Positions 1 to 5,298 of a stretch of DNA of 5,298 nucleotides are shown in pieces. The stretch lies in the NCBI GenBank assembly GCA_016190205.1, contig JACPQZ010000040.1, positions 1-5,298 of the forward strand. Direction: 5' to 3'. The notes beneath the pieces were generated by a model. It was given only the letters and a program-made list of their open reading frames with translations, searched no databases and was not told the origin of the DNA. The translations under genes were made by a program, and so were the position numbers. Position 1 is the first letter of the stretch. Each line of letters starts with the position of its first letter. The DNA is from Candidatus Omnitrophota bacterium (GTDB lineage Bacteria; Omnitrophota; JACPQZ01).

Positions 1-150
1 CTGCGCATGCGCATGGTCCGCCGCAACCCTGTAGAATTCCGGCAGGAAGAATGGCTCACACCCTCCAGGGATCTGTTCCAGCGCCGCCCGCCACTCGCCG
101 GTATCCTCAAGGCCCAGGACGCGCACACTTTCCCGCGTGGTTGGGCTCAT
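1..150 (-). CDS. N-terminus of a putative FemAB-like GNAT acyltransferase (partial, cut by left edge)
   Basis: Fifty codons read open from an ATG at 150-148 to the left edge, so only the N-terminus is visible. The translation begins MSPTTRESVRVLGLEDTGEW and continues with a segment containing FFLPEFYRVAADH. A Trp near residue 20 followed by an aromatic-rich LPEFY segment near residues 34-40 resembles the N-terminus of FemAB-like GNAT acyltransferases, which commonly have a 'D-x-Y-h-x-P-E-Y' stretch there; this is recalled from family knowledge, not a search. The start is well supported: its ATG overlaps the TGA of the upstream aminotransferase gene (ATGA, 4-base overlap), and a GAGG ribosome binding site lies 5 bases upstream. 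If the family call is right, it would transfer an acyl or aminoacyl group, plausibly onto an amine made by the adjacent DegT enzyme. That pairing is inference. No acyl-CoA or tRNA binding motif is visible in this fragment. Confidence 0.6.
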   Translation of the reverse strand, partial: MSPTTRESVRVLGLEDTGEWRAALEQIPGGCEPFFLPEFYRVAADHAHAQ

Positions 151-1148
151 GTTGACCTCGTTATGAGGGAAGACATAAACTCGACCATACGGTCAACCTC
201 TGCCTCAGTCATAGATGGAGCCACCGGCAGGTTCAGCATCCTCTCCGAAAGACGGTGTGAAGCCGTGAAGCACTCCGGCTCGAGCGCGCGTATCAGCGTA
301 TGGTAGAGGCTGGCGACAACAAAGCCCTCTGCCTTCAGGCCGAAATAGAGTTGGTCCCGCAAGGTTGTGTTCGAAACCCTGACGGGGCATGTCTGCGGGA
401 CGGTTCCAACCGGCAAGCCGGGCCAGAGCGGAACGACCGCCGGCGCCAGCGCACGCAGTCGTGTCACGAGCTTATGGTAGTTGGCAACTCTGGCCTGCGA
501 GTGGGCGGTGACATCCTCCTCGAAAACCCGCACCCAGTCGGCATCACACACCTGTCCGGCCGCACCTGGGGGGATGACGGCTGCCAGCGCTTCGGTGTTC
601 AGCTTCAGCACCCCGCCTTCATGGACATCGAACATCTTGTGCATCGAATAGAGGACTGCCTCCCCATCCTTTCCGCAGCTCGCCAATGCCTCGGCGGAAA
701 AATAGGCATGCGCTGCATCTTCAATGACCGGCACCCCCAGATGGCGCGCCAGCCGGATGATGGCTGCCAGTTCCGGATCGGGCCGGCCGAAATAATGGAT
801 GAGAACGAGCGCGCTCGACTGCGGGCTTTCCTCAAGCACCGACTTAAGATGCTCCACGTCTACGGTAAGATCATCGCAGACAGGGTAAAACCGCGCGCTG
901 AGCGAGCGCTCCTGAATCGGGTCATACACGCCGGAGCCCTCGCGCGAGCTATACCCGACGTAGGCCGGCAGAATCACCGCGCCCCCCCGGCACCCGATGG
1001 CCAACGCATCAAGCACCGCGCCGAACGCATCCCGGGCCCGCGGATAGAGTCTCCAGCGAGAAGTGCGGTTTACGCGCCCCGACACCCTGCCGACTGCGCT
1101 GGGCCCCTTCTTAAAGTCAACCATCATTTGCTTGCCGTGACGATCCAT
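147..1148 (-). CDS. DegT/DnrJ/EryC1/StrS-family PLP-dependent aminotransferase
   Basis: A 333-residue protein of the sugar aminotransferase family (fold-type I PLP enzymes, usually about 330-400 residues). Visible landmarks, numbered from this start: RLYPRARDAF (about 33-42), the LPAYVGYSSREGSGVYDP stretch (60-77), LIHYFGRPD (116-124), the EDAAHA PLP-contacting segment (143-148), the SMHKMF segment whose Lys171 should form the PLP aldimine, and the C-terminal LNLPVAPSMTEAEVDRMVE (306-324), typical of the family. It probably moves an amino group from glutamate onto a keto-sugar, although some family members are dehydratases. The start is a choice: ATG 1148 has AAGAGGG 7 bases upstream but overlaps the methyltransferase gene by 25 bases. 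ATG 1127 would give an ATGA overlap like other junctions here, but has only a weak ribosome site. It differs in sequence from the Campylobacter LegC type as I recall it, so the substrate is left open. Confidence 0.85.
   Translation of the reverse strand: MDRHGKQMMVDFKKGPSAVGRVSGRVNRTSRWRLYPRARDAFGAVLDALAIGCRGGAVILPAYVGYSSREGSGVYDPIQERSLSARFYPVCDDLTVDVEHLKSVLEESPQSSALVLIHYFGRPDPELAAIIRLARHLGVPVIEDAAHAYFSAEALASCGKDGEAVLYSMHKMFDVHEGGVLKLNTEALAAVIPPGAAGQVCDADWVRVFEEDVTAHSQARVANYHKLVTRLRALAPAVVPLWPGLPVGTVPQTCPVRVSNTTLRDQLYFGLKAEGFVVASLYHTLIRALEPECFTASHRLSERMLNLPVAPSMTEAEVDRMVEFMSSLITRST
156..159 (-). promoter_or_regulatory. Ribosome binding site of the left-edge acyltransferase gene
   Basis: The minus strand reads ACGAGGTCAACATG here: GAGG followed by a 5-base spacer and the ATG at 150-148. 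It lies inside the end of the DegT coding region, and together with the 4-base ATGA overlap it fixes the start of the partial gene at the left edge. Confidence 0.65.
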
Positions 1149-1801
1149 TGCACGACCCTCTTCGTTCGCCCTTTCAGCGTCCGCTCTCTGCGCTCGTAGC
1201 TTAATTCGGAAAATTCCCGGAATAGCCGGGACAGGTCCGCTTCCGAGAAAAAGTGTATGATTCCGCATCCGACCGCCGGCCCCTCGTTGACCGACTCGAA
1301 GGTACCGGGTTCAATCGCGGCACCGGTTCCCTCGCCCCAGGAACCTTCCCCGATGAGGATCGCGAACAGCTTTCCTCCGGGTGCGAGCACCCGATGCACC
1401 TGGGCTATGATACGCTCGCAATGCCCCAGCCGGTTGTGCTGCACCGCCGCAATGTCGAAGGCCCCCTGGAACATCCCGTCGGCGAAGGGCAGGTTTACCA
1501 AGTCGCCGACCCGAAGCTGGGCCTTCAGGCCGTCCGCCGCCAGCCGCTTTTCCGCGCGCTCAATGGCGACCTTCGACCCGTCAATCCCGCTCACCCGGTA
1601 ACCTTCCCGCGCCAGGAACCATACATTGGCACCGGGACCGCAGCCGAGGTCCAGCAGCTGAATCTGGTCCCGCCCCGGCAGAGGCCCATACGTACGACTG
1701 ACGAACGCAACCAGCTCCTCCGAGGGATATTGTCCCCACGCCCGTGCGCCAAACACGGCATCCCAGATCGGACTCCAAGCTTGAGGAGCTTCTACGTGCA
1801 T
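1124..1801 (-). CDS. Class I SAM-dependent methyltransferase
   Basis: A 225-residue soluble protein with the Rossmann-type methyltransferase core. SAM-binding motif I is LLDLGCGPGAN (49-59). The acidic end of strand 2 lies in SGIDGS (71-76, Asp74). GDLVNLPFADGMF (99-111) is motif II-like, followed by IAAVQHN (117-123) and the post-core LAPGGKL (139-145). The N-terminus (WSPIWDAVFGARAWGQYPSEEL, 9-30, split here as WSPIWDAVFG and ARAWGQYPSEEL) is a small helical cap that I recall from methyltransferases encoded beside neuB-type genes. The acceptor cannot be read from sequence; in this context a nonulosonate, its acyl group or another glycan residue is the best guess. The ATG overlaps the end of the epimerase gene by 10 bases and no good Shine-Dalgarno sequence precedes it, which suggests translational coupling. 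No signal peptide or membrane segment is visible. Confidence 0.88.
   Translation of the reverse strand: MHVEAPQAWSPIWDAVFGARAWGQYPSEELVAFVSRTYGPLPGRDQIQLLDLGCGPGANVWFLAREGYRVSGIDGSKVAIERAEKRLAADGLKAQLRVGDLVNLPFADGMFQGAFDIAAVQHNRLGHCERIIAQVHRVLAPGGKLFAILIGEGSWGEGTGAAIEPGTFESVNEGPAVGCGIIHFFSEADLSRLFREFSELSYERRERTLKGRTKRVVQWIVTASK
1156..1162 (-). promoter_or_regulatory. Probable ribosome binding site of the DegT-family gene
   Basis: The minus strand reads AAGAGGG, followed by a 7-base spacer and ATG at 1148-1146. This is the main reason for choosing 1148 over the ATG at 1127, which has only GGCAAGC upstream. It lies within the methyltransferase coding region. Confidence 0.5.
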
Positions 1802-2955
1802 ATCTGGAACCGCTTCATGCGAATCTGCTCCCCCAACTCGACCGTCTCCAGCACGTTCACGATCTTCTGGGAGGAGCGCCTGTCATAATACGGGTTGACC
1901 AGACCCTTAAGCCTCTCGCGGAACGCGTCCGACAGCGCCTGTTCGAGCCCCGTGCGGATATCCGATGTGTCGTCCGCCACATCGATGACATTTGCCGCCC
2001 GCAACCTGCCCTGCTGGCGGTCTCCCACATTCACTGCGGGCAACTCGAACGAGGGCGCTTCAAGCAGCCCGCTGGATGAGTTGCCAATCATAGCCCGCGC
2101 CCGCCGCATGAGGCTCGCGTAGGCGACCCATCCAAGGCTCTTGACAAACCGCGTCCTGGGCCGGCGCTGGGCATACGCGCACAGAGCGTCATTGATCAGC
2201 TGTCCGCCGGCGTCCCCGTTCGCCGCGGTGATGACAATCAGGCGCCGGTACTCGTCCAGCACCATGGTTAGATGGGCCACTTGGGCGGCAATCCGCTCCG
2301 GTTTAAGCGTGACCGGATGCAAGGTGACCAGGAGGGGAGGTTCCCACTCCGACGGATCAATGCCGATCTTCTGTGCCAGCTCCTCATCCGTAAGCCACTC
2401 TGTCGGGGTGAGGGCATCTAAACTGGGTTCGCCCACGACGTGGATCCGCCAGGGTTCTTCCCCCATCTGGCGAATTCGCGCCGCGCTTTGCTCATTGCTC
2501 GGAAAATGCAGATGACACAACTTCGTCAACGCGTGGCGGAAGGCATCATCCAACACCCCCTCGGTCAGGTCGCCCCCCGAGATGTGCGCGACCGTCAGCC
2601 CGCTCGTCACCCCCGCGACTGCCGCTCCAAACATTTCGTAGCGGTCGGCGATCACCACCAGGATATCCGGCCGGCATGCCGCGAACAGTTGCGCGAAGGA
2701 GCTGATCGAGCGGCCGAGGGCGTCCGCCATGCCGGCCGGTGACTCGACGGCATGGCCGATCGGTATCCGCGCGCTGATCGGGAACCGGTCTGCGAGGATC
2801 TCGCTCTCCGTACGACCGAATTCTTTCATGAGGTGTGAGCCGGTAACCAGGAGTTCCATCTGAAGTGCCGGCCTGGCCACGATCTCACGCAGGACAGGCT
2901 TGATGAATCCGTAGTCCGCCCGTGAGCTGGTGACAACCGCGATGCGCCTACTCAT
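1792..2955 (-). CDS. neuC: NeuC/LegG-family hydrolysing NDP-N-acetylhexosamine 2-epimerase
   Basis: A 387-residue cytosolic enzyme of the GT-B-fold UDP-GlcNAc 2-epimerase family, hydrolysing NeuC/NnaA branch. These enzymes epimerise C2 and release the free sugar (ManNAc from UDP-GlcNAc, or the diacetamido analogue in legionaminate synthesis). Motifs: N-terminal RIAVVTSSRADYG (4-16), VTGSHL (37-42), IADRYEMFGA (102-111), AHISGGDLTEGVLDD (123-137), TLHPVT (211-216), IGNSSSGLLEAP (290-301) and VNVGDRQQGR (308-317). The last two are the conserved nucleotide-binding part of the C-terminal domain. An in-frame ATG at 2985 would add ten residues deep inside neuB; ATG 2955 is preferred because GGAG lies 11 bases upstream and the conserved strand begins right after it. 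It overlaps neuB by 8 bases. The gene symbol is a family assignment: sequence alone does not separate NeuC from LegG. Confidence 0.9.
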   Translation of the reverse strand: MSRRIAVVTSSRADYGFIKPVLREIVARPALQMELLVTGSHLMKEFGRTESEILADRFPISARIPIGHAVESPAGMADALGRSISSFAQLFAACRPDILVVIADRYEMFGAAVAGVTSGLTVAHISGGDLTEGVLDDAFRHALTKLCHLHFPSNEQSAARIRQMGEEPWRIHVVGEPSLDALTPTEWLTDEELAQKIGIDPSEWEPPLLVTLHPVTLKPERIAAQVAHLTMVLDEYRRLIVITAANGDAGGQLINDALCAYAQRRPRTRFVKSLGWVAYASLMRRARAMIGNSSSGLLEAPSFELPAVNVGDRQQGRLRAANVIDVADDTSDIRTGLEQALSDAFRERLKGLVNPYYDRRSSQKIVNVLETVELGEQIRMKRFQICT

Positions 2956-4027
2956 CGGAGAGTGCGCTCCAGTCCAGTAACTCATCCTTCGCCAGGGCCC
3001 GGCGGGTCACCCGCCCGATCACCGATGGCATATCCTTGCTCGCCAGCCCTGTCCCGGGCCGCTTGAGCGTGAGGTCCCGCTCCGCGAGCCGCGTCCCCGC
3101 TCGGAGCACACGAGCCGCCACAATGCTGCGCCGCGCGACCGCCCGCACATCCATCTCAGACGCCCGGGGCCGCTTGTTGCCATCCCCGAGGGCGGATTCC
3201 ACGTTACGGATGGAGGTGACGAGTGCGCGCAACTCGTCCGGCGCGAGCGATGCCCGGTGATCGGGCCCGGGCATCGTTCGGTCGAGCGTGAAGTGCTTCT
3301 CGATGACACACGCCCCCAGCGCCACGGCAGCCAGGGCCACTTCAATCCCCTGTGTATGATCTGAAAATCCTACGGGCACGGCAAAGACCGAGCGCATCGA
3401 ATGCATGACCCTTAAATTCACCTCCTGATGAGGGGCGGGGTAGGCGCTTACGCAATGAAGCAGAATCAGACGACGATTCCCGGTCTGAAAAATGGTTCTG
3501 ACCGCAGTTTCCACTTCATCCAATGTAGACATGCCTGTGGAGAGAATGACGGGCCTTCCTTTTCGTGCAACTATTTCCAAAAACGGAAGATGGGTGATTT
3601 CACCGGATGGGATCTTAAAAACAGGCATTCCGAGCTCATCCAGAAAATCGGCGCTATCTTCATCAAACGGCGTGGACATGAAAAGAATTCCTTTTTTGCG
3701 GGCATGGGCAGCAATTTCGCGGAAGGCGTCGAAGGAAAGCTCGAGCCGCTGGGCCATATTCAATTGCGATTCCGATGAACCGGTCGTCTCCCGTTGATAA
3801 CCCGCTTTGGGAGCGTGGACACTGATCACCTTCTCGGACCGGAACGTCTGAAACTTAATCGCATCGGCACCAGCCGCTTGCGCGGCATCCACGAGTCGAA
3901 ACGCCTGCCGGATATCCCCGTTATGATTGACACCCGCCTCGGCGACGATAAAACAAGGTTCGTCATGCCCGACCTTTCGGCCGGCAATCTCAATCACTTC
4001 GCTCGGTCGCTCGCTCGTTTTCAACAT
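2948..4027 (-). CDS. neuB: NeuB-family nonulosonate (sialic/legionaminic-type acid) synthase
   Basis: A 359-residue enzyme that condenses phosphoenolpyruvate with a free N-acetylated hexosamine to give a nine-carbon nonulosonic acid in the cytosol. The N-terminal TIM barrel shows CFIVAEAGVNHNGD (25-38), AIKFQTF (56-62), GILFMSTPFDEDS (113-125), FKIPSGE (137-143), ILSTGMST (161-168), LLHCVSAYPAP (189-199), GFSDHTQG (220-227) and VIEKHFTLDRTMPGPDH (241-257). His224 and His245 match the family's metal-binding histidines. The C-terminus (about 298-357) is an SAF/antifreeze-like domain with KRPGTGL (322-328), whose Arg reaches the partner subunit's active site in known NeuB structures. Length is normal (about 340-360). 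The start overlaps the upstream gene by 7 bases, with AAGAGAG 10 bases upstream. Its 5' part is near 48% GC and its 3' part near 68%, a sharp change inside one gene. The exact product (Neu, Leg or related) is not decided by eye. Confidence 0.93.
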   Translation of the reverse strand: MLKTSERPSEVIEIAGRKVGHDEPCFIVAEAGVNHNGDIRQAFRLVDAAQAAGADAIKFQTFRSEKVISVHAPKAGYQRETTGSSESQLNMAQRLELSFDAFREIAAHARKKGILFMSTPFDEDSADFLDELGMPVFKIPSGEITHLPFLEIVARKGRPVILSTGMSTLDEVETAVRTIFQTGNRRLILLHCVSAYPAPHQEVNLRVMHSMRSVFAVPVGFSDHTQGIEVALAAVALGACVIEKHFTLDRTMPGPDHRASLAPDELRALVTSIRNVESALGDGNKRPRASEMDVRAVARRSIVAARVLRAGTRLAERDLTLKRPGTGLASKDMPSVIGRVTRRALAKDELLDWSALSDE

Positions 4028-4857
4028 GGGCCCTGAACTCTCTTCGCCTTTAAGCGGGCGGGGGTGGCTGTTTGTTCAACATGCACTCGCCCGCGAGCCC
4101 GGCTCTCCCGATTGATACCCAACAGCTCGGGCTTACGCCTGATGAGCGCCAAAACGTCAGCTAACGAAAACACCTCCCCGGGCCGGTAAAGATCTTCAAA
4201 AATAGATTTGAGAAATCTGTAGTCCTCGGGGTAATCGAGCGATGTTTTCAAGGTCGAATGTTCAAAGGCCGGATCGGGCTCCATTTCGTGTATGCGAAAA
4301 AGGCCTGTCTCCGTAAAATAGGGTGCCCATACTTCCGTCTCCGTTTCGGCTTTCAGGGCACACACCCGAGCCAAGGCGCTGACCTTGATCCCATAAGGGC
4401 CTTGGCCTTGAGGTAAATAGGACGAAAGGATGAAATCGGCTCCTGTACTTTCATAGGCCTCGACTACCCGATCAATATGAAGGGGGTCAACCAAAGGGCA
4501 ATCTGCCGTGATATTTGCAATGGCGTCCACGCCGTGCTCCCGGGCAGCTCTATAAAGTCGGGTGAGCACATCATTCGGGCTCCCTCGGTAACAGAGCACC
4601 CCTTCCTCCCGCGCAATTTTCTCGAGGGCATCGTCCTCGGGATGCGTTGAGGTACAGACAATAATCTTATCCACACGCCTGGCGCGCTTAATCCGATCAA
4701 GTAAGTGGCATATCACCGGCCTGTCCGCAAGGTGCAACAAAACCTTTCTCGACAGGCGCCTCGATTTGAGACGTGCAGTCAGCAGGAATCCGACTCCCTC
4801 ACCACCTGCTTCTTCGCCATACTTTAAGATGCGATTACCCTGCCCTATATTAATCAC
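4021..4857 (-). CDS. SpsF-type cytidylyltransferase (probable CMP-nonulosonate synthetase)
   Basis: A 278-residue protein of the SpsF/acylneuraminate cytidylyltransferase superfamily, which activates sugars with CTP. Motifs: nucleotide-binding loop FLLTARLKSRRLSRKVL (24-40), IIVCTSTHPEDD (65-76), YRGSPNDVLTR (90-100), NITADCPLVDP (115-125) with the metal-site Asp119, and the C-terminal SLDYPEDYRFLKSIFEDLY (206-224), equivalent to the family's 'D-x-P-E-D' segment. Position directly before neuB and neuC suggests it makes the CMP-activated nonulosonate in place of a NeuA. The start is GTG at 4857, the only usual start codon in this frame before the core; an in-frame stop lies at 4870-4872. It gives a 22-residue leader before the first strand and forms a GTGA overlap with the previous gene. 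Oddities: Ser where the family loop usually has Pro-Gly (RLPGK), and a basic tail of about 30 residues (249-278) that looks nonconserved and is GC-rich. Confidence 0.85.
   Translation of the reverse strand: MINIGQGNRILKYGEEAGGEGVGFLLTARLKSRRLSRKVLLHLADRPVICHLLDRIKRARRVDKIIVCTSTHPEDDALEKIAREEGVLCYRGSPNDVLTRLYRAAREHGVDAIANITADCPLVDPLHIDRVVEAYESTGADFILSSYLPQGQGPYGIKVSALARVCALKAETETEVWAPYFTETGLFRIHEMEPDPAFEHSTLKTSLDYPEDYRFLKSIFEDLYRPGEVFSLADVLALIRRKPELLGINRESRARGRVHVEQTATPARLKAKRVQGPC
4199..4218. repeat. Small inverted repeat, copy 1 (AGATTT-GAG-AAATCT)
   Basis: This 20-base stretch inside the cytidylyltransferase gene contains a perfect 6-base inverted repeat around a 3-base loop and matches copy 2 at 4891-4910 at 17 of 20 positions; only the loop differs. 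It encodes part of RFLKSIF on the minus strand. It may be a coding coincidence. Confidence 0.35.
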
Positions 4858-5298
4858 TTGACATCGATCTCAACACCGGCAGCTTCGTATAAAATAGATT
4901 TCACAAATCTCTTTGATTTGTACAATTCTTGAAGACCCTTACCTCTATCAGCACCCAGAACAATCCTCGATAATTCATTCTTTCCTTTTAACTTCAACTT
5001 GACGGATAAATAATCTCTTTTGTTGGGTCCTGTCTTCTTAAACGTATCTACAAGAAAGTTTTCTTTTACCAGAAAATCATAAGTAGTACCGTGTAGAACA
5101 AATTCTCTGACTTCCTCAATATGATTCAGATCAAGGCACAGTCTCTTAATGGAATAGTCCTTGATTTCTTCTATATTGAATTCAGAGGCCTTGACAGGAT
5201 TTTTTTCTAAAATAAAGTTTTCGATGTATGCAATAATGTTTAAAAATACATTTTTGTCAAATAGAACTCTGGGTATAAATTTGAAATTAATAAATTCA
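4854..5298 (-). CDS. C-terminal part of an AT-rich gene of unknown function (cut by right edge)
   Basis: The frame ending in TGA at 4856-4854 is open for 148 codons to the right edge, so the start lies outside the window. That is unlikely by chance in sequence of about 30% GC. The C-terminus reads in part VLHGTTYDFLVKENF, VDTFKKTGPNKRDYL, RIVLGADRGKGLQELY, KSKRFVKSILYEAAG and VEIDVK. It is rich in Lys, Glu, Ile, Phe and Asn, alternates hydrophobic and charged stretches like a soluble alpha/beta protein, and shows no membrane segment. I do not recognise the family. The stop codon overlaps the GTG of the cytidylyltransferase gene (GTGA), so it belongs to the same operon and is probably involved in glycan synthesis or transfer; this is inference. 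At roughly 25-37% GC against 50-68% for its neighbours, it looks recently acquired. Confidence 0.75.
   Translation of the reverse strand, partial: EFINFKFIPRVLFDKNVFLNIIAYIENFILEKNPVKASEFNIEEIKDYSIKRLCLDLNHIEEVREFVLHGTTYDFLVKENFLVDTFKKTGPNKRDYLSVKLKLKGKNELSRIVLGADRGKGLQELYKSKRFVKSILYEAAGVEIDVK
4891..4910. repeat. Small inverted repeat, copy 2 (AGATTT-CAC-AAATCT)
   Basis: This copy lies near the 3' end of the AT-rich right-edge gene and encodes part of RFVKSIL. The stem bases and the preceding AAAAT are identical to copy 1 at 4199-4218, with a different 3-base loop. It lies about 35 bases upstream of the cytidylyltransferase start, where a weak hairpin could form in the message. Confidence 0.35.

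Follow-up and report, generated by a model that had tools for sequence, protein, structure and literature searches.

A legionaminic-acid-type operon of uncultured Omnitrophota in which a FemAB-family protein probably takes the place of the LegH acetyltransferase

The window studied here, a complete 5,298-bp contig (JACPQZ010000040.1; C29 of genome G000) of a Candidatus Omnitrophota bacterium whose 1.65-Mb genome is 92.8% complete, is the 5' half of an operon of the type that makes legionaminic acid (Leg) activated with cytidine monophosphate (CMP), and the operon continues on a second contig of the same genome, C76. Its core is ordinary. Its tailoring genes, a trio coding for a methyltransferase (MT), a short DegT-fold protein (DegTs) and a FemAB-family protein, are uncommon and informative. 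FemAB is probably a substitute for the LegH acetyltransferase, performing a step that the pathway requires and not adding an extra decoration, and an unusual amino-acid substituent is probably present on the sugar. We favour, with reasonable confidence, a reading in which FemAB aminoacylates the nitrogen that will become N-7, MT caps the product and DegTs acts on the aminoacyl group.

One operon on two contigs

Searching the same genome with FemAB, PtmE-like, LegB and LegC proteins placed all four in the first 5.1 kb of C76. Read on its minus strand, the window ends in 141 bases that also open C76, letter for letter, an overlap of the type that assemblers leave between adjoining contigs. Once joined, the gene order is ORF0, spsF, neuB, neuC, MT, degTs, femAB, a tylF-like methyltransferase gene, a CBS-domain nucleotidyltransferase gene (PtmE-like), a legB-like gene, legC and further glycan genes, with LegC above its family cut-off (TIGR04181, 464.2 versus 420 bits). 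The exact overlap also completes the FemAB frame to 355 residues (PF13480, 46.7 bits), and so proves the identity of a 50-residue start that could merely be guessed from the window alone. The first-pass annotation had guessed right, and a LegB-type dehydratase, which it had proposed to seek in the flanks, is indeed there on C76 as a LegB-like protein, adjoined by LegC.

The operon is truncated at both ends of the window, which holds, from upstream to downstream:

4854..5297, minus strand: AT-rich open reading frame (ORF0), C-terminal part, upstream of spsF with a GTGA overlap; zero Pfam or NCBIfam matches
4021..4857, minus strand: SpsF-like candidate CMP-nonulosonate synthetase (LegF role); PF02348, 79 bits
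2948..4027, minus strand: NeuB/LegI nonulosonate synthase with SAF domain; TIGR03569, 466.6 bits, cut-off 399.65
1792..2955, minus strand: NeuC/LegG hydrolysing 2-epimerase; TIGR03568, 404.7 bits, cut-off 235.9
1124..1801, minus strand: S-adenosylmethionine-dependent methyltransferase (MT); PF13649, 74 bits
147..1127, minus strand: short DegT-fold pyridoxal phosphate (PLP) enzyme (DegTs); PF01041, 59.8 bits, partial match
1..150, minus strand: FemAB/GNAT aminoacyltransferase-like start of 50 residues, its frame open at the contig end and the rest on C76

The six genes first noted, spsF to femAB, are genuine open reading frames, and their overlapping frames, already remarked upon in the first reading, extend to every junction from ORF0 to femAB, where start and stop share the letters GTGA (SpsF), ATGTTGA (NeuB), ATGAGTAG (NeuC), ATGCACGTAG (MT) and ATGA (DegT and FemAB).

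The pathway is of the legionaminic-acid type because LegB and LegC are in the operon and because NeuB and NeuC belong to Leg-type clades. In FastTree trees of 46-48 sequences, both window proteins fall among LegB-linked homologues, distant from the Neu-type NeuB and NeuC of E. coli K1, O145 and TCM_B_2. The best solved match of NeuC is the GDP/UDP-diNAcBac (N,N'-diacetylbacillosamine) 2-epimerase 5xvs (E 6e-66). The CMP synthetase of the pathway would be the SpsF-like protein, to judge by its PF02348 match; its nearest solved cytidylyltransferase is 6oew (E 1.8e-25), and a homologue occurs in another Leg locus with FemAB (L041). The earlier view of the pathway class needs amending: the class is Leg, not N-acetylneuraminate (Neu5Ac) with extras. 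A second NeuB match in G000 (C33) was discarded as a DAHP synthase-like gene within an aromatic-pathway region. No match to the NeuD family (TIGR03570), the one LegH family searched for, rises above its cut-off in G000. Since no NeuD-family LegH was found, we read the operon as one of Leg type whose acylation step is altered, and not as one for canonical Leg5Ac7Ac.

FemAB, apparently in the place of NeuD

To see how general this arrangement is within the phylum, the neighbourhoods of 71 Omnitrophota LegB genes were fetched and the 43 loci with NeuB were counted, including L034 and the window/C76 locus, though in these LegB or NeuB lay outside the fetched stretch. A NeuD-type (LegH-type) acetyltransferase is present in 28 of the 43, as a separate gene in 26 and fused to NeuB in two; the fusions join NeuD to the N-terminus of NeuB in proteins of 551-556 residues (L117, 11683-13335; L126, 6742-8409). 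FemAB is present in five of the 43, and none of these five has NeuD (Fisher p 0.003; 0.001 once G371, a sixth locus with FemAB that came to light afterwards, is counted). MT, scored at 100 bits or more, accompanies FemAB in all five loci and is absent from the other 38 (p 1e-6), where L126 shows a partial match of 85 bits; the loci in these tables are related, and the p-values are descriptive and overstate the case. The absence of NeuD-family matches above cut-off extends to the whole genomes G000, G357, G214 and G263, and likewise to six further genomes.

Most of the remaining loci that lack NeuD have a formyltransferase-like or an ATP-grasp gene. The former occur in L130, L142, L144, L148 and L116, where their position in place of NeuD suggests N-formyl Leg. 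ATP-grasp genes occur in L116, L132, L141 and L159, all lacking both NeuD and FemAB, and L116 and L159 add a PHP-domain-like gene and a gene with a zinc-finger/methyltransferase look; perhaps these genes represent another N-acylation route. N-acyl groups are a main source of nonulosonate diversity. The pattern suggests that Leg operons have a single interchangeable position, occupied by NeuD, a formyltransferase, an ATP-grasp enzyme or FemAB, which would let genes predict the group on N-7.

The fold of FemAB is consistent with aminoacyl transfer. The window's own protein matches PF13480, and a homologue from L045 in G263, 36% identical to the C76 protein, was modelled (pLDDT, the predicted local distance difference score, 90.7) with a predicted tandem GNAT fold of the FemX type. 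Over its whole length this model resembles FemX (Z 26.6, root-mean-square deviation 3.2, 307 residues aligned) and the aminoacyl-tRNA-dependent Sbb17/Sba18 (Z 23.9), the matches to acetyl-CoA-using GNATs being far weaker (Z about 15). However, FemX and Sbb17 act on a peptidoglycan precursor or streptothrisamine and are only 15-17% identical, and a shared predicted fold does not prove aminoacyl-tRNA to be the donor.

Relatives in E. coli and in other genomes

The closest characterised relative of this Leg variant is the O-antigen cluster of Escherichia coli O161. It was reached by a distant DNA search for neuB and neuC across 5,426 genomes of E. coli, which pointed to strain 22AR0750, whose wzx is annotated as that of O161. 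The O161 antigen contains Leg5Ac7(D-Ala), a Leg5NAc7N with a D-alanyl group (PMC10609480). In the cluster of 22AR0750, a FemA/FemB-family gene lies between legC and neuB; its product is homologous to our FemAB (76-118 bits) and matches all of the FemABs of this study (43-129 bits) and their family profile (197 bits). In two further Leg clusters of E. coli, FemA/B is lacking and an acetyltransferase is present. The gene after neuC (L182, 10549-11532) is annotated as a 263-residue hypothetical protein, WP_201792914.1, but no stop interrupts the frame as far back as an earlier ATG, and the true start is probably there, giving a predicted DegT-fold protein of 327 residues with SGRSSL and SLRK motifs. 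As a direct homologue of DegTs the annotated 263-residue form was rejected, its match not being significant. The 327-residue form was rejected as a member too: it reaches 46 bits on a profile against which generic DegT proteins score 40-75 bits, and is a DegT-fold relative only, belonging to a subtype that Priestia also has (35 bits). A relative adjoins FemAB on a Priestia plasmid; a short DegT-fold protein therefore accompanies FemAB in two subtypes.

The O161 cluster shares with the Omnitrophota operon LegC, FemA/B, NeuB, NeuC, a PtmE-like nucleotidyltransferase, a cytidylyltransferase and a short DegT-like protein. It differs in having no MT, a dehydratase annotated as of UDP-N-acetylglucosamine type, another DegT subtype, and a CMP synthetase of NeuA and not SpsF type. 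The known 7-N-D-alanyl Leg structure is now tied to two candidate genes, and uncultured Omnitrophota probably make an aminoacylated Leg. What the first-pass annotation had proposed, a tailored nonulosonate, is upheld in part. An aminoacylated Leg is plausible, with O161 as its structural precedent; FemAB is probably not an addition to the pathway but its LegH substitute.

Other known sugars resemble the proposed product in single respects. The CMP-Leg5AmNMe7Ac pathway of Campylobacter and Legionella (ptmG, ptmH), which we liken from papers only, shares the Leg core genes and a methyltransferase adjoining neuB, PtmH, which N-methylates the 5-acetimidoyl group (PMC3766260); there, however, the modified nitrogen is N-5, LegH is among the enzymes, and FemAB or a short DegT are not described. 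In Leg5GluNMe7Ac of Clostridium botulinum, Leg bears an amino-acid group that is N-methylated, and a PtmH orthologue is involved (PMC13317340), but this glutamyl group is on N-5 and the transferase is not named as a FemAB. Vibrio vulnificus CMCP6 makes Leg5Ac7AcAla, with an alanyl group on N-7 of Leg (PMC7371886), although this alanine is N-acetylated.

Among 384 Omnitrophota genomes, DegTs is found in full length four times (three copies and that of the window), and every copy is within a few kb of NeuB, NeuC, MT and FemAB (4/4), so that the trio does belong with neuB and neuC as first supposed. A search for conservation of the six-gene order had also been proposed; only the content is kept, and the order differs among loci. 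A wider scan of genome contigs added L041, L043 and L047, with DegTs, FemAB, NeuB, NeuC and an MT-family gene (a weaker match in L043, 85 bits). Genome G263 holds two closely alike FemAB-MT-NeuB-LegB loci, L161 (C18) and L035 (C25), one with DegTs and one without. From the trees, no firm number of independent FemAB gains is claimed, because the seven changes on the NeuB tree are indistinguishable from those with shuffled labels (the NeuC tree gives four).

Finding the trio mostly apart from neuB and neuC had been named as what would undo the idea of a tailored nonulosonate. In Omnitrophota the trio goes with neuB/neuC, and outside the phylum the DegT-FemAB pair is also seen without neuB, beside 4-amino-sugar genes. 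L036-L039 and L046 have DegTs and FemAB and no NeuB. Several non-nonulosonate loci and a Deinococcus plasmid carry genes for a PglF/WbpM-like dehydratase, a LegC/PglE-like aminotransferase and a sugar transferase, and plasmid FemAB adjoins PglF/LegC-type genes in Cetobacterium, Priestia and Deinococcus. No MT was found on plasmids at E 1e-15. The pair is thus not nonulosonate-specific, and MT is so in the loci seen. The pair has a GNAT gene as its neighbour in MT's place in L039, L046 and Deinococcus, as might be expected if that aminoacyl amine were N-acetylated there. Chance or a chimeric contig was rejected as the source of the trio on account of the recurrence of the cassette in other phyla and the exact join to C76. 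Viral contigs gave zero close relatives.

The proposed pathway, its rivals and the rest of the cluster

In the pathway that we propose, the PtmE-like nucleotidyltransferase, LegB and LegC would produce a nucleotide-activated 4-amino-4,6-dideoxy-N-acetylglucosamine, to whose 4-amine FemAB, in the place of LegH/NeuD, would transfer an amino acid, probably from aminoacyl-tRNA. NeuC (LegG) would then hydrolyse and epimerise the aminoacylated sugar, and condensation with phosphoenolpyruvate by NeuB (LegI) would turn the acylated nitrogen into N-7; the conversion of hexose C-4 to C-7 by NeuC and NeuB is established Leg chemistry. The SpsF-like enzyme would give the CMP form. MT would cap the aminoacyl amine, most likely by N-methylation. 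DegTs would work on the aminoacyl group together with FemAB, and our leading guess is that it epimerises this group to the D form.

Several points weigh against this pathway, besides the relatedness of the loci already mentioned. The LegB-like dehydratase of C76, though TIGR04180 is its best family match, stays below the cut-off (431.9 versus 475 bits). G389 (L047) has a NeuD-like match elsewhere in its genome just below the cut-off (146.5 versus 160.8), and the LegH step could be done by an acetyltransferase of GNAT type encoded at another place in the genome, beyond the NeuD family that was searched. The four Omnitrophota metagenome-assembled genomes are 77-94% complete. Two of the Leg loci with FemAB in Omnitrophota, L161 and G371, lack DegT, which must therefore be considered optional, and the DegT-like protein of O161 is distant (17.7 bits to the DegTs profile). 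Finally, gene content, adjacency, homology, folds and the replacement pattern are observed, but the hosts are uncultured and we infer all substrates and products, the order of the steps and the identity of the amino acid.

The role of DegTs is the least settled part. In the translation that starts at base 1139, the protein has an SxHK motif with K168 and ED at 140-141, and D141, S165, H167 and K168 are invariant across 14 homologues. Its model (pLDDT 86.9, residues 1-25 at low confidence) matches DegT sugar aminotransferases with Z 27-29 over about 290 residues, and the protein has the predicted type I fold, PLP lysine (K168) and aspartate (D141) of the DegT/DnrJ/EryC1/StrS family; the N-terminus is shorter than in solved family members. 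The favoured pathway could accommodate, as a doubtful though real possibility, a DegTs that is a true sugar aminotransferase making a further or acceptor amine that FemAB then acylates. The fold and PLP lysine are as in GDP-perosamine synthase and ArnB, and within 20 kb at L036 DegTs is the sole DegT gene. However, LegC-type aminotransferases are already present in most nonulosonate loci and in L038, L039 and Deinococcus, so that a second one would have no obvious ketone to act upon, and DegTs is optional and lacks the N-terminal arm. Alternatively, DegTs may invert the alpha-carbon of the sugar-bound aminoacyl group, FemAB adding the L form from tRNA and DegTs converting it to the D form. DegTs is a candidate for such an epimerase because tRNA supplies L-amino acids and O161 carries D-alanine; the step is a guess, and we consider it rather unlikely to be right as stated. 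If true, it would be, as far as we know, an activity new to DegT proteins and would account for the D-amino acids of bacterial glycans.

It is also conceivable, and in our opinion quite improbable, that the pathway is of Leg type while FemAB, MT and DegT act on a different sugar within that glycan, LegH being an unrecognised acetyltransferase encoded elsewhere. The occurrence of the DegT-FemAB pair without neuB, beside 4-amino-sugar or N-acetyl-L-fucosamine-type genes, speaks for this, as do the many further glycan genes on C76. Yet FemAB and NeuD exclude each other in Leg loci and MT is confined to those with FemAB, O161 ties FemA/B to an alanylated Leg, and several of the non-nonulosonate pairs themselves adjoin aminotransferases that make a 4-amine. 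Scarcely credible is a plain Neu5Ac pathway with unrelated tailoring genes, as the NCBIfam labels of the window's NeuB and NeuC (N-acetylneuraminate synthase, UDP-GlcNAc 2-epimerase) might suggest, for identical labels are given to proteins of LegB/LegC operons such as L040, and LegB and LegC in the operon together with the NeuB and NeuC trees contradict it.

The gene cluster likely has a mosaic origin. Along the contig, GC content starts near 37% and climbs to 65%, in a step positioned upstream of the trio that runs across coupled genes. It is about 37% at the upstream end (4751-5298; 30% over the last 300 bases), within the open reading frame coupled to spsF, and no partner contig was found for this AT-rich end. 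At the other side, C76 (locus L069) carries in the same cluster, at 10655-14253, genes for an HpcH/HpaI aldolase, a KdsB-like cytidylyltransferase and a 2-hydroxyacid dehydrogenase-like protein, whose product might be a second CMP-activated keto-deoxy acid.

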